Shown in pieces: positions 15,549 through 63,084 of a stretch of 64,000 bases of DNA. The stretch is from contig JADLAK010000044.1 in the NCBI GenBank assembly GCA_020848275.1, forward strand, positions 62,001 through 126,000, read 5' to 3'. The notes below the pieces were generated by a model that was not told the origin of the DNA, searched no databases, and was given only the letters and a program-made list of their open reading frames with translations. Both the position numbers and the translations under genes were made by a program. Origin of the DNA: Planctomycetota bacterium (lineage in GTDB: Bacteria > Planctomycetota > UBA8742 > UBA2392). The first letter of the stretch is position 1. Every line of letters starts with the position of its first letter.

Positions 15549-15648
15549 GATTGTGGATCGTGGATTGTGGATTGTGGATTGGACATGTCCAGCGCGGATT
15601 CGGTCGCCGCAGGGCGAATCAAAAATCCACAATCCAAAATCCACAATT
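15549..15648. repeat. Palindromic element, family 3 (ATTGTGGATT arms)
   Basis: The left arm is made of GATTGTGGAT units, the centre is GC-rich (GGACATGTCC), and the right arm is the complementary AATCCACAAT units. The same build occurs at 44931-45033. The right end overlaps the stop codon (TAA, 15647-15649) of the FHA gene, so the element has replaced or extended that gene end. Its left end is 11 bases from the aspS start. Confidence 0.8.
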
Positions 15649-31750: not shown

Positions 31751-31770
31751 AGCGGACAGGAATGTCCGCT
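31751..31770. repeat. Palindromic element, family 2, single arm
   Basis: AGCGGACAGGAATGTCCGCT, a perfect dyad apart from its centre. The same core GCGGACAGGAATGTCCGC forms the right arm of the double element at 61874-61970. It stands alone here, 17 bases upstream of the proS start. Confidence 0.7.
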
Positions 31771-31926
31771 CCACGAATTCAAAGTTGGTTGATTATTGCG
31801 GCCGGTGGGGCCGCGCTGACGCCAGCGCAAATGACCACACGAGCCGCTATCGCGGTCGCGGGGACACCTGTTTCGCTGATTTCCTGCTCATGACGGCAAG
31901 CGTAACGCGCAAAGCCCGCCTGTCAA

Positions 31927-44930: not shown

Positions 44931-45033
44931 GATTTTGGATTTTGGATTGTGGATTTTGGATTGGCGCTGCCGCGCCCCGGCGCAACCGCGCGACTAGGGT
45001 AATCCACAATCCACAATTCACAATCCACAATCC
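44931..45033. repeat. Palindromic element, family 3, second copy
   Basis: GATTTTGGATTTTGGATTG units on the left and AATCCACAATCCACAATTC units on the right enclose a GC-rich centre (CGCCCCGGCG). The same design as 15549-15648, but here between divergent genes, so it is not tied to gene ends. The arms are runs of a 9-10 base word, so pairing can slip. Confidence 0.8.
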
Positions 45034-58192: not shown

Positions 58193-58200
58193 AACTCGCG

Positions 58201-58267
58201 TAGCTAAGCCATCCTGGCTTAGCGGAGATAACGGTGACACACTGCTAAGCCAAGATGGCTTAGCTAC
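58201..58267. repeat. Nested palindromic element, family 4 (TAAGCCA/TGGCTTA)
   Basis: Two arms, one starting TAGCTAAGCCATCCTGGCTT, are reverse complements of each other with one mismatch over about 24 bases. Each arm is itself a hairpin (TAAGCCA-TCC-TGGCTTA; TAAGCCA-AGA-TGGCTTA). This is the same architecture as the unrelated sequence at 61874-61970. It lies between the converging porin and fabG genes, ending two bases from the fabG stop. Confidence 0.8.
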
Positions 58268-60722: not shown

Positions 60723-61868
60723 ATGGCTGCGATAATCACCGGCGTAGGCGTCGTGAGCTCCCTCGGAGCTGATCCCGTCTCGTTCGCCAAGGGTCTGCGC
60801 GGGGGGCGCTCCGGCTGCGCGCTGCACGACTTCGAATATTTAGGCGGCCGCAAAGTCAGTGCGCCGGCGTATCTGGCAATGCCCGCTGACGCCAAAGGTT
60901 TGATCGACCCCAAAAAGCTGCGCCGCATGGACCGCTTATCGCGCATGTGCGCGGTTTCCGCGCGCCAGGCGCTGGCGATGGCAGGTATTGACGCGTCAAC
61001 GCTCAACCCGGCGCGCACCGGCGTCGTTTTCGGCACCGCCTTTGGCGCCATGGCGACCACGCAGGCGTTTGTGGACAGTTGGCTCAAGCAGGGCGAACGC
61101 CACGCAAGCCCGCTCAACTTCATGAACTCCGTACACGGCATCATGGCCAGCCTGATCGCGCTCGACCTTGGCATTACCGGCGTCAATCTCACGCTCAGCC
61201 AGCGCGACCTGAGCTTCGAGGGCGCGCTCGTGACGGCCCTCGAAATCCTCGAGAGCGGCGAGGCCGATACCTTGATCGTGGGTGCGGGCGACGAACTCAC
61301 GCCGCTGCTTCACGATTTCGGCGCGCGCGTGCACTACGTCAACCTCGACGCCGCAAACGCCCGCGGTCTCGACCCCTTCGCGCCCACCGACCCGACGGTG
61401 CCGGGCGACGGCGCGGCAGTGATCGTGCTTGAACGCGCTGACAGCAAACGCAAGCCGCTGGCGAAGTTCGAAGCCGCGGCGATGGGACGGCTTGGCAAGA
61501 CCGACCTTGCGGCGAAGCTGCTTTCGAGCGATCTGCGCTCGATAATTTCGCTGGCGACCACCAACCGCGGCGGCAGTAAACGTGCGGCGGCGCATTTTGC
61601 GCGGCGCGAAAATGCGCTCGATGGTTTGCTTGGCCGCGAGCTTGTTAAACTGACGCATCGCGGCAACTTCGGCGATTCGCCTTCGGCGGGCGCGTTGCAG
61701 TGCGTTGCCAACGTGCTGATGCTGTCGGGCGGCGAGGTGTTTGCGCCGCTGGCGGCGGGCGAAATTCGCCGCGACCTCGTCGCGGGCGTTGCCGCCCCCA
61801 CCGCGATCCTGCACGACGCCGCCAGCGTTTCCGGCACCCACGCGGCGTATGTGTTGACGCAGGCATAA
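60723..61868 (+). CDS. Chain-length-factor-like ketoacyl synthase without catalytic residues
   Basis: 381 residues with the ketoacyl synthase fold (IITGVGVVSSLGADP, GVVFGTAFGAMATTQAF, NSVHGIMASLIALDLGITG, TLIVGAGDE, PGDGAAVIVLER). The nucleophile region reads LTLSQRDLSFEGA: the cysteine is gone (Asp162 in an ungapped alignment, Gln160 two residues earlier). The first histidine motif (AHGT) is replaced by ATTNRGGSKR and the second (KSxxGH) by HRGNFGDSPSAG. It cannot condense by itself. Such proteins act as chain-length factors that form heterodimers with an active KS in type II polyketide, aryl polyene and related systems. The immediate upstream KS is the obvious partner. Confidence 0.85.
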   Translation: MAAIITGVGVVSSLGADPVSFAKGLRGGRSGCALHDFEYLGGRKVSAPAYLAMPADAKGLIDPKKLRRMDRLSRMCAVSARQALAMAGIDASTLNPARTGVVFGTAFGAMATTQAFVDSWLKQGERHASPLNFMNSVHGIMASLIALDLGITGVNLTLSQRDLSFEGALVTALEILESGEADTLIVGAGDELTPLLHDFGARVHYVNLDAANARGLDPFAPTDPTVPGDGAAVIVLERADSKRKPLAKFEAAAMGRLGKTDLAAKLLSSDLRSIISLATTNRGGSKRAAAHFARRENALDGLLGRELVKLTHRGNFGDSPSAGALQCVANVLMLSGGEVFAPLAAGEIRRDLVAGVAAPTAILHDAASVSGTHAAYVLTQA

Positions 61869-61873
61869 TCTCC

Positions 61874-61970
61874 CGTGGGGCGGACATTCTTGTCCGCCCG
61901 GTCGGCGAAGCCGACCGAATTAGCTAGAGTGCCGCAAAGCGGCACCGCGGACAGGAATGTCCGCGCCACG
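61874..61970. repeat. Nested palindromic element, family 2, double form
   Basis: Outer arms of about 24 bases (left core GCGGACATTCTTGTCCGC, right core GCGGACAGGAATGTCCGC, outermost CGTGG/CCACG) are complementary with two mismatches. Each is also a palindrome by itself. Between them are two more perfect hairpins, GGTCGGC-GAA-GCCGACC and GTGCCGC-AAA-GCGGCAC, so the whole can form a cruciform or cloverleaf. A single arm is found at 31751-31770. It precedes the ubiA-like start by ten bases. Confidence 0.85.
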
Positions 61971-61980
61971 GATTGCAATT

Positions 61981-63084
61981 ATGCCCGAAGCCCCCGTCAA
62001 AGAGGTCACGCCGCCGCCGATGCCCGCGCCGCAGGGCGTGATCGGCACGATCAAAACCTACGGCAGCTTCGTCAAATTCTCGCACACGGTGTTTGCATTG
62101 CCGTTCGCGATCACAGGCATGCTTGTTGCCTACACAATGGGGATCGGTTTTCGAGATGTCTGGCCTTCATTTGTGTTTGTGGGAGATTCCATTCCCGGCA
62201 ATGTCCGGCCGTTGCGCGAATCAATCTTTCCAGTTTTCAGCGTCGTAACGTTAGCACTGGTATTTGCGGCCATGGTGGGCGCACGCAGTTTCGCAATGGC
62301 GCTCAACCGCATCCTTGATCGCCGCATTGACGCATCAAACCCCCGCACGGCAGGCCGTGAACTTCCATCGGGCCGAATGACGTTGGCCCAGGCTTGGGCG
62401 TTCGCCATTAGCGCCGCGATTCTCTATTTCGGAGCCTGTGTTGCGCTGGGCCGCGTAACAACCGCTCTCAGCCCAATCCCGATTGCGCTGATGACGGTAT
62501 ATCCGTTCACCAAACGCTTCACGTCGCTGTGCCACTTCGTGTTAGGTGCGTCTCTAGGATTGGCTCCTGTTGGGGCATGGGTCGCAGTCCGCGCTGGCGG
62601 TTCACTTTTGCTCCCCGATCAGCTTCCCGAATTAGGCGGCTGGGGCGCGGTCACCGAACCGCTCCCTTGGATTCTTGGCCTCGGCGTCATGCTCTGGGTC
62701 GCAGGGTTCGACATTATCTACGCGCTGCAGGACGATGAGTTCGACCGGGCAAACAAGCTGCACTCTTTTCCCGCGCAGTTTGGACGTTTCGAGGCGCTCG
62801 TTATGTCCCGCATTGTGCACGTGTTCGCAGCCGTCGCGTTTGTGGTCTTTTCAATCCAGATGTCTGGCGCTTTCGCCTTGTCTGAAGATCCTCAACCGCT
62901 GCCACTTTGGACCCTTGCCGCCCCTGTTATCGCCATTGTCGGGTTGATCTGGCAGCACAGGCTGGTGAAACCCGACGACCTGTCACGCGTGAACGTGGCG
63001 TTCTTCACCGTGAACGGGATTATCTCGGCACTGTTCGGCGCGGTGTACGTCGCGGGTTACATTGTGTGGCGAATGGCCAATTGA
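61981..63084 (+). CDS. UbiA-family polyprenyltransferase (MqnP/4-hydroxybenzoate type)
   Basis: 367 residues, about nine membrane helices. Both aspartate motifs for Mg-diphosphate are clear: N109-x3-D113-x3-D117 in NRILDRRIDASNPRT, and DIIYALQDDEFDR in the second repeat. The surrounding text (FVKFSHTVFALPFAI; ASNPRTAGRELPSGRM) is that of the UbiA/MqnP branch that prenylates aromatic acids for quinone synthesis. An ATG at 61957 lies inside the palindromic element, so I use 61981. It is the last gene of the ACP-KS-CLF run; it either prenylates the product of that run or is a neighbouring menaquinone gene. No other mqn or ubi gene is seen. Confidence 0.9.
   Translation: MPEAPVKEVTPPPMPAPQGVIGTIKTYGSFVKFSHTVFALPFAITGMLVAYTMGIGFRDVWPSFVFVGDSIPGNVRPLRESIFPVFSVVTLALVFAAMVGARSFAMALNRILDRRIDASNPRTAGRELPSGRMTLAQAWAFAISAAILYFGACVALGRVTTALSPIPIALMTVYPFTKRFTSLCHFVLGASLGLAPVGAWVAVRAGGSLLLPDQLPELGGWGAVTEPLPWILGLGVMLWVAGFDIIYALQDDEFDRANKLHSFPAQFGRFEALVMSRIVHVFAAVAFVVFSIQMSGAFALSEDPQPLPLWTLAAPVIAIVGLIWQHRLVKPDDLSRVNVAFFTVNGIISALFGAVYVAGYIVWRMAN

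Follow-up and report, generated by a model that had tools for sequence, protein, structure and literature searches.

A 97-base, hairpin-rich, non-coding element whose inverted outer arms are themselves palindromes raises two questions: what kind of sequence it is, and by what means it has spread. The element was met in the window, the whole stretch of 64,000 nt analysed here. Within it, positions 61875–61969 hold two GTGG-tagged REP palindromes placed head-to-head, with two hairpins inside (Table 1). In what follows, the genome of the window is called G000 (4.41 Mb, 111 contigs, 88% complete).

The element in the window and its copies

The outer arms (61873–61897 and 61947–61971) are 92% complementary over 25 nt, each of them is also a palindrome by itself, and the two inner hairpins stand between them, so that the description given by the initial annotation, of reverse-complementary arms that fold alone and enclose two further hairpins, is borne out. 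REPs usually bear a GT[AG]G tag (PMC6006769), and the element carries GTGG at 61875 and CCAC at 61966. Read from outside to inside, an end of this family comprises GTGG, the palindrome (GGCGGACA-TTCT-TGTCCGCC or GCGGACA-GGAA-TGTCCGC) and an inner hairpin, and a short centre, AATTG or a sequence like it, separates the two facing ends of a dimer.

Table 1. REP-type features of the window, with strand and the evidence for each
Feature	Position	Strand	Evidence
Single REP of the same family as the window element (AGCGGACAGGAATGTCCGCT + CCAC)	31751..31774	-	sequence, genome matches
Another REP sequence as a head-to-head dimer, GTAG-CTAAGCCATCCTGGCTTAGC ... GCTAAGCCAAGATGGCTTAG-CTAC	58200..58267	.	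sequence, fold
GTGG tag (guide-like tetranucleotide) of left REP, CC before	61875..61878	+	sequence; CC/CT rule at own-genome non-MITE tags
Left REP palindrome, GGGCGGACA-TTCT-TGTCCGCCC	61878..61899	+	sequence, copies, covariation (100% paired)
Inner hairpin A, CGGTCGGC-GAA-GCCGACCG	61899..61917	+	fold; compensatory changes in 5/8 pairs, 12 dimers
Inner hairpin B, GTGCCGC-AAA-GCGGCAC	61929..61945	+	fold; compensatory changes in 4/7 pairs
Right REP palindrome, CGCGGACA-GGAA-TGTCCGCG, inverted partner	61946..61965	-	sequence, copies, covariation (100% paired)
CCAC, outward GTGG tag of right REP, GG after	61966..61969	-	sequence; CC/CT rule

As single-stranded DNA the element folds with z = -10.2 against dinucleotide shuffles, none of 200 shuffles being as stable, and its lowest-energy fold is the long arm-to-arm hairpin. 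It is very stable as RNA too (z = -10.9 against shuffles), all four hairpins are kept by compensatory changes, and the window copy occupies the space separating two genes of the same strand, from the end of a KS-like ORF at 61868 to the UbiA ATG at 61981. These features would suit a purely host-functional structured element, such as a transcription attenuator, a terminator or an mRNA stabiliser, selected as RNA and not mobile. We regard this as very improbable, since the copies are scattered in unrelated contexts and match the ends of a transposase gene, the tag and its adjoining dinucleotide are as expected of RAYT substrates, and at the window element neither a terminator-like site nor an Rfam match was found. 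A host role of the element may be secondary. All copies of the REP family in the window lie between Pfam-supported genes.

The single arm reported at 31751 is confirmed as a palindrome (31751–31770) followed by a CCAC tag (31771–31774). We take it for a dimer that has decayed or collapsed. With the proS ORF starting about 18 nt downstream, it could affect proS translation. The sequence at 58201–58267 had been credited with exactly the same architecture and taken as a sign that design, not sequence, is conserved. The head-to-head layout, the palindromic arms (96% complementary; fold z = -8.5) and the tags do recur there with another REP sequence, but the 20-nt spacer is without inner hairpins, and no second copy of the palindrome was found in its own genome or in the family genomes. 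Inverted repeats of GGATTGTGGATT units, a different type of repeat, occupy 15550–15647 and 44931–45033 of the window.

Across G000 there are 115 perfect GCGGACANNNNTGTCCGC palindromes, against 0 for the reversed control pattern. At least 32 pairs among the 101 listed palindrome sites form inverted dimers, mostly 64 bp apart, and the 91-nt element finds 40 matching places by blastn: the window copy at 100% identity and some 27 others at 82%, the latter closely alike among themselves. The copy count is a lower bound because many contigs of G000 end in these copies. The initial annotation, which proposed a search for the core across the genome and named its confinement to the window sites as the finding that would count against a mobile element, is thus answered by a dispersed core with 115 palindromes in 4.41 Mb; together with a RAYT gene with matching ends, described below, this supports its claim of a dispersed mobile element type.

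Singles tagged on both sides exist (for instance L017:395), and one copy of the larger MITE-like repeat treated below, C95:19614–19700, has a single REP. We infer that these are dimers collapsed by deletion between the arms, and decay or collapse of a dimer is the best reading of single REPs in general. One single REP forms head-to-tail 40-bp arrays at C9:64–232 (L226) and at the starts of C41 and C49. The C9 array has 4.2 copies, 97% alike, and adjoins a GTAGCGCGGGCGTCTCGCCCGC palindrome, further copies of which stand at several contig ends. A CRISPR-like origin, or chance palindromes in G+C-rich DNA, could appeal to this array, yet it consists of one repeated REP with near-constant spacing sequence and no unique spacers. 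The count of 0 in the reversed control against 115 refutes such readings, the fold (z = -10) speaks against them as well, and practically no credence is left to them.

A transposase gene with matching ends

A REP-associated tyrosine transposase (RAYT) is encoded at G000:C102:11329–11763. The PF01797 profile finds 11 genes in G000, and this one is the weakest, its score of 21.7 being just under the Pfam cut-off of 23; against the NCBIfam model for REP-associated tyrosine transposases (REP_Tyr_transpos) the protein reaches 1.6e-19 and 70.2 bits, where the curated cut-off is 80. Its HFH and YIxxNP motifs are present, its best PDB sequence match is 4er8 TnpArep, and a protein search aligns it with a RAYT of the family member G014 at 46% identity (3.2e-46). 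The ATG-initiated N-terminus runs into a stop, and it is the next frame that encodes the catalytic part. The reading frame is apparently not intact, through a one-base frameshift or an assembly error, and judging from the sequence the gene may be dead or mis-assembled.

The gene is bracketed by inverted REPs with outward GTGG/CCAC tags (L220:1323 and L220 near 1934). Ahead of it stands GTGGC-GCGGACATTCCTGTCCGC-G; behind it come hairpin A and then GCGGACAAGAATGTCCGC-GCCACGG. The flank after the gene, with its inner hairpin, agrees with the window element (43 of 48 positions) and with a MITE copy (43 of 46). The position of hairpin A in the window element is that of the hairpin beside the RAYT gene. 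In the flank before the gene the first 26 nt are identical to the window (REP and tag exact); an inner hairpin of its own follows, with a sequence unlike that of hairpin B. The dimer therefore looks like the two ends of this RAYT unit with the gene missing (a REPIN), and a RAYT with matching ends, which the initial annotation had recommended looking for, is present in the same genome.

Elsewhere in G000, palindromes beside the other Y1 genes are either absent or different in sequence. RAYT-like genes at L018, L021, L022, L024 and L025 are each bracketed by a palindrome pair of their own, which indicates that several REP/RAYT systems coexist in this genome. A candidate RAYT on C70, with a MITE copy some 330 bp away, was set aside: its flanking palindromes differ and it is frameshifted, and by our estimate such nearness would arise by chance in a few percent of cases.

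RAYT genes lie beside this palindrome, or one almost identical to it, in three genomes: G000, G029 and a Zixiibacteriota MAG. In G029, of the same phylum, four tandem units come after the RAYT, and each is made of a GTGG-GGCGGACATTCGTGTCCGCC REP and an inverted GGCAGGCA REP; the RAYT of the Zixiibacteriota MAG (L245) lies between GTGGGGCGGACACTCTTGTCCGCC-type REPs. The family members G007 and G014 have single GTGGC-GCGGACATTCTTGTCCGC-GC copies in which the GTGG tag is one-sided. GCGGACA ends were absent from the RAYTs scanned in these two genomes, and a related loop type, CCCGACA-ATCT-TGTCGGG / CCCGACA-GGAT-TGTCGGG, accompanies the G014 RAYT at L198.

A RAYT domain was also observed in frame inside alanyl-tRNA synthetase, at G000:C18:59521–59841 (L019, L317), in G007:C30 (L219) and in G014:C1 (L190). 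In these three genomes, which represent two genera, its position is identical, immediately ahead of the CGGTH zinc motif; G005 (L316), G006 (L319) and G012 (L318) lack the domain there. In G000 this is the only alaS found; it is a 1170-aa open frame in which the flanking GTAG-tagged REPs are translated as well. In G014 the frame is broken elsewhere.

Conserved hairpins, the putative cutting site and the larger repeat

Two models of the transposase target, separate arm hairpins or one long dimer hairpin, can be separated by covariation. In an alignment of 12 distinct dimers, 97.8% of cells in the four local hairpins pair and 13 pairs have changed on both sides; 0 of 500 shuffles reach this, although such counts are not probabilities, as the aligned dimers are related. 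Both structures were compared on this one alignment. In it, no pair of the arm-to-arm duplex has changed on both sides, and pairing is lost where an A-T to G-C change affected only one arm. The pairing kept by evolution is within each arm.

The bases outside the tag are likewise conserved. Before the 40 non-MITE GTGG tags of G000, a few of which are units of one tandem array, the preceding two bases are CC in 20 and CT in 12 (32/40). For a group-3 TnpAREP, cleavage is reported to shift to CC when GTGG takes the place of GTAG (PMC8266576). The CC/CT before GTGG is in line with this published rule, as far as sequence can tell, and the agreement was not built in.

Very probably, then, we are dealing with a head-to-head REP dimer (REPIN/BIME-1-like) that descends from a RAYT transposon, lacks the gene between the ends and is non-autonomous. 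When the region becomes single-stranded, each arm would fold by itself, and the RAYT, an HUH single-tyrosine nuclease, would bind tag and hairpin; the candidate substrate is single-stranded GTGG-GGCGGACATTCTTGTCCGCC with CC or CT before the tag. The enzyme would cut at the CC or CT that borders the tag on its outer side, and then join both ends, and the joined unit would be excised and inserted elsewhere. Cutting and movement of the dimer by the RAYT are what we infer from these sequences; the dispersal, the matching RAYT ends, the conserved local hairpins and the conserved CY before the tag are the observations on which this model is built.

Spread by the RAYT is probably not the whole account. 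The TIR CTAAGCGGTCCNA occurs at about 26 places in G000, each beside this palindrome, and with GGACCGCTTAG at the other end it bounds a repeat of about 150 bp that holds the dimer. Most of the near-identical dimer copies lie inside this MITE-like repeat; the window copy is without its ends. The CTAAGCGGTCC/GGACCGCTTAG ends fit CTAG targets, and the flanks of copies seen whole share no direct repeat outside CTAAG/CTTAG. IS630-type elements duplicate TA within a CTAG target. The natural reading for the repeat, by analogy, is such a TA duplication, though it is inseparable from the conserved ends. A further repeat, with ends like AGAGCATTTTCAAGATTACCGTGCCGG, was seen in the flanks of L035, L044, L056, L069, L075 and L086 and often abuts MITE-like copies.

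In a second step, one dimer would have been captured by such a TIR-bounded, IS630-like MITE, which would have given rise to most of the near-identical copies, the window copy being an independent dimer outside it. Most of the recent copies appear to have been multiplied by the MITE-like element carrying the REP dimer, and not by the RAYT alone. The earlier suggestion of mobilisation by a REP-associated transposase accordingly holds in that a cognate RAYT is present, but does not by itself cover these recent copies. One could go further and let the TIR-bounded MITE alone spread the copies, with the REP arms as passive cargo and the RAYT link historical, as the TIR beside a palindrome at all of the roughly 26 places and the near identity of the TIR-bearing copies would allow. 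This we consider unlikely, since about a dozen dimers, and the window copy with them, have no TIR, and their inner hairpins vary but still pair; moreover, RAYT genes in three genomes are flanked by the palindrome. A nested element of two transposases is about as likely as not: a RAYT-type dimer within an IS630-like MITE and mainly its cargo, in which the four local hairpins, not the arm-to-arm duplex, are maintained. If this is true, a double-strand cut-and-paste element has become the main vehicle of a structure maintained for a single-strand nuclease.

Relation to known REP and MITE systems

The window element is a genuine REP dimer, or REPIN, with a RAYT in the same genome, and belongs to a known kind; less usual are its structured, covarying spacer and the nesting of most copies in a MITE-like repeat. 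It offers a clean RAYT/REP pair in an uncultured lineage. The findings suggest routes of derivation among singles, dimers, tandem arrays and gene-bearing units, and that the spread of REPs can be taken over by a different transposon.

The larger repeat resembles IS630/Tc1-type MITEs (RUP and similar) in its 13 bp TIR, its ends fitting TA within CTAG, its length of ~150 bp and its lack of coding sequence. Unlike these, it contains a complete REP dimer, and no DDE_3 (IS630-type) transposase was found in the G000 assembly.

REPINs are REP doublets that form hairpins (Bertels and Rainey 2011, PMC3116915). The window family shares with them two inverted REPs with a spacer, a length of about 65–100 bp, dispersal, common singles and linkage to a specific RAYT. 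It differs in a spacer filled by two extra covarying hairpins, in covariation that backs within-arm hairpins rather than arm-to-arm pairing, and in the many copies inside a MITE-like repeat. Similarly, the RAYT on C102, between two inverted REPs with outward tags, resembles a REPtron, a RAYT gene with flanking REPs, and GTGG-type tags are listed for Pseudomonas RAYTs (Nunvar 2010, PMC2817692). Unlike a REPtron, it is apparently frameshifted in the assembly, and an inner hairpin accompanies each REP.

The HH dimer, a REP pair with tags outside, is described for the GTAG superfamily, with spacers of 20–100 bp, some with small stem-loops, of which there are two in Agrobacterium CGTC-3 dimers (Di Nocera 2013, PMC3733652). 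The window element likewise has tagged palindromes, tags outside and a structured spacer. In contrast to those dimers, its family has the tag GTGG and the stem GGCGGACA/TGTCCGCC, and its inner hairpins covary and on one side match the hairpin beside the RAYT gene.
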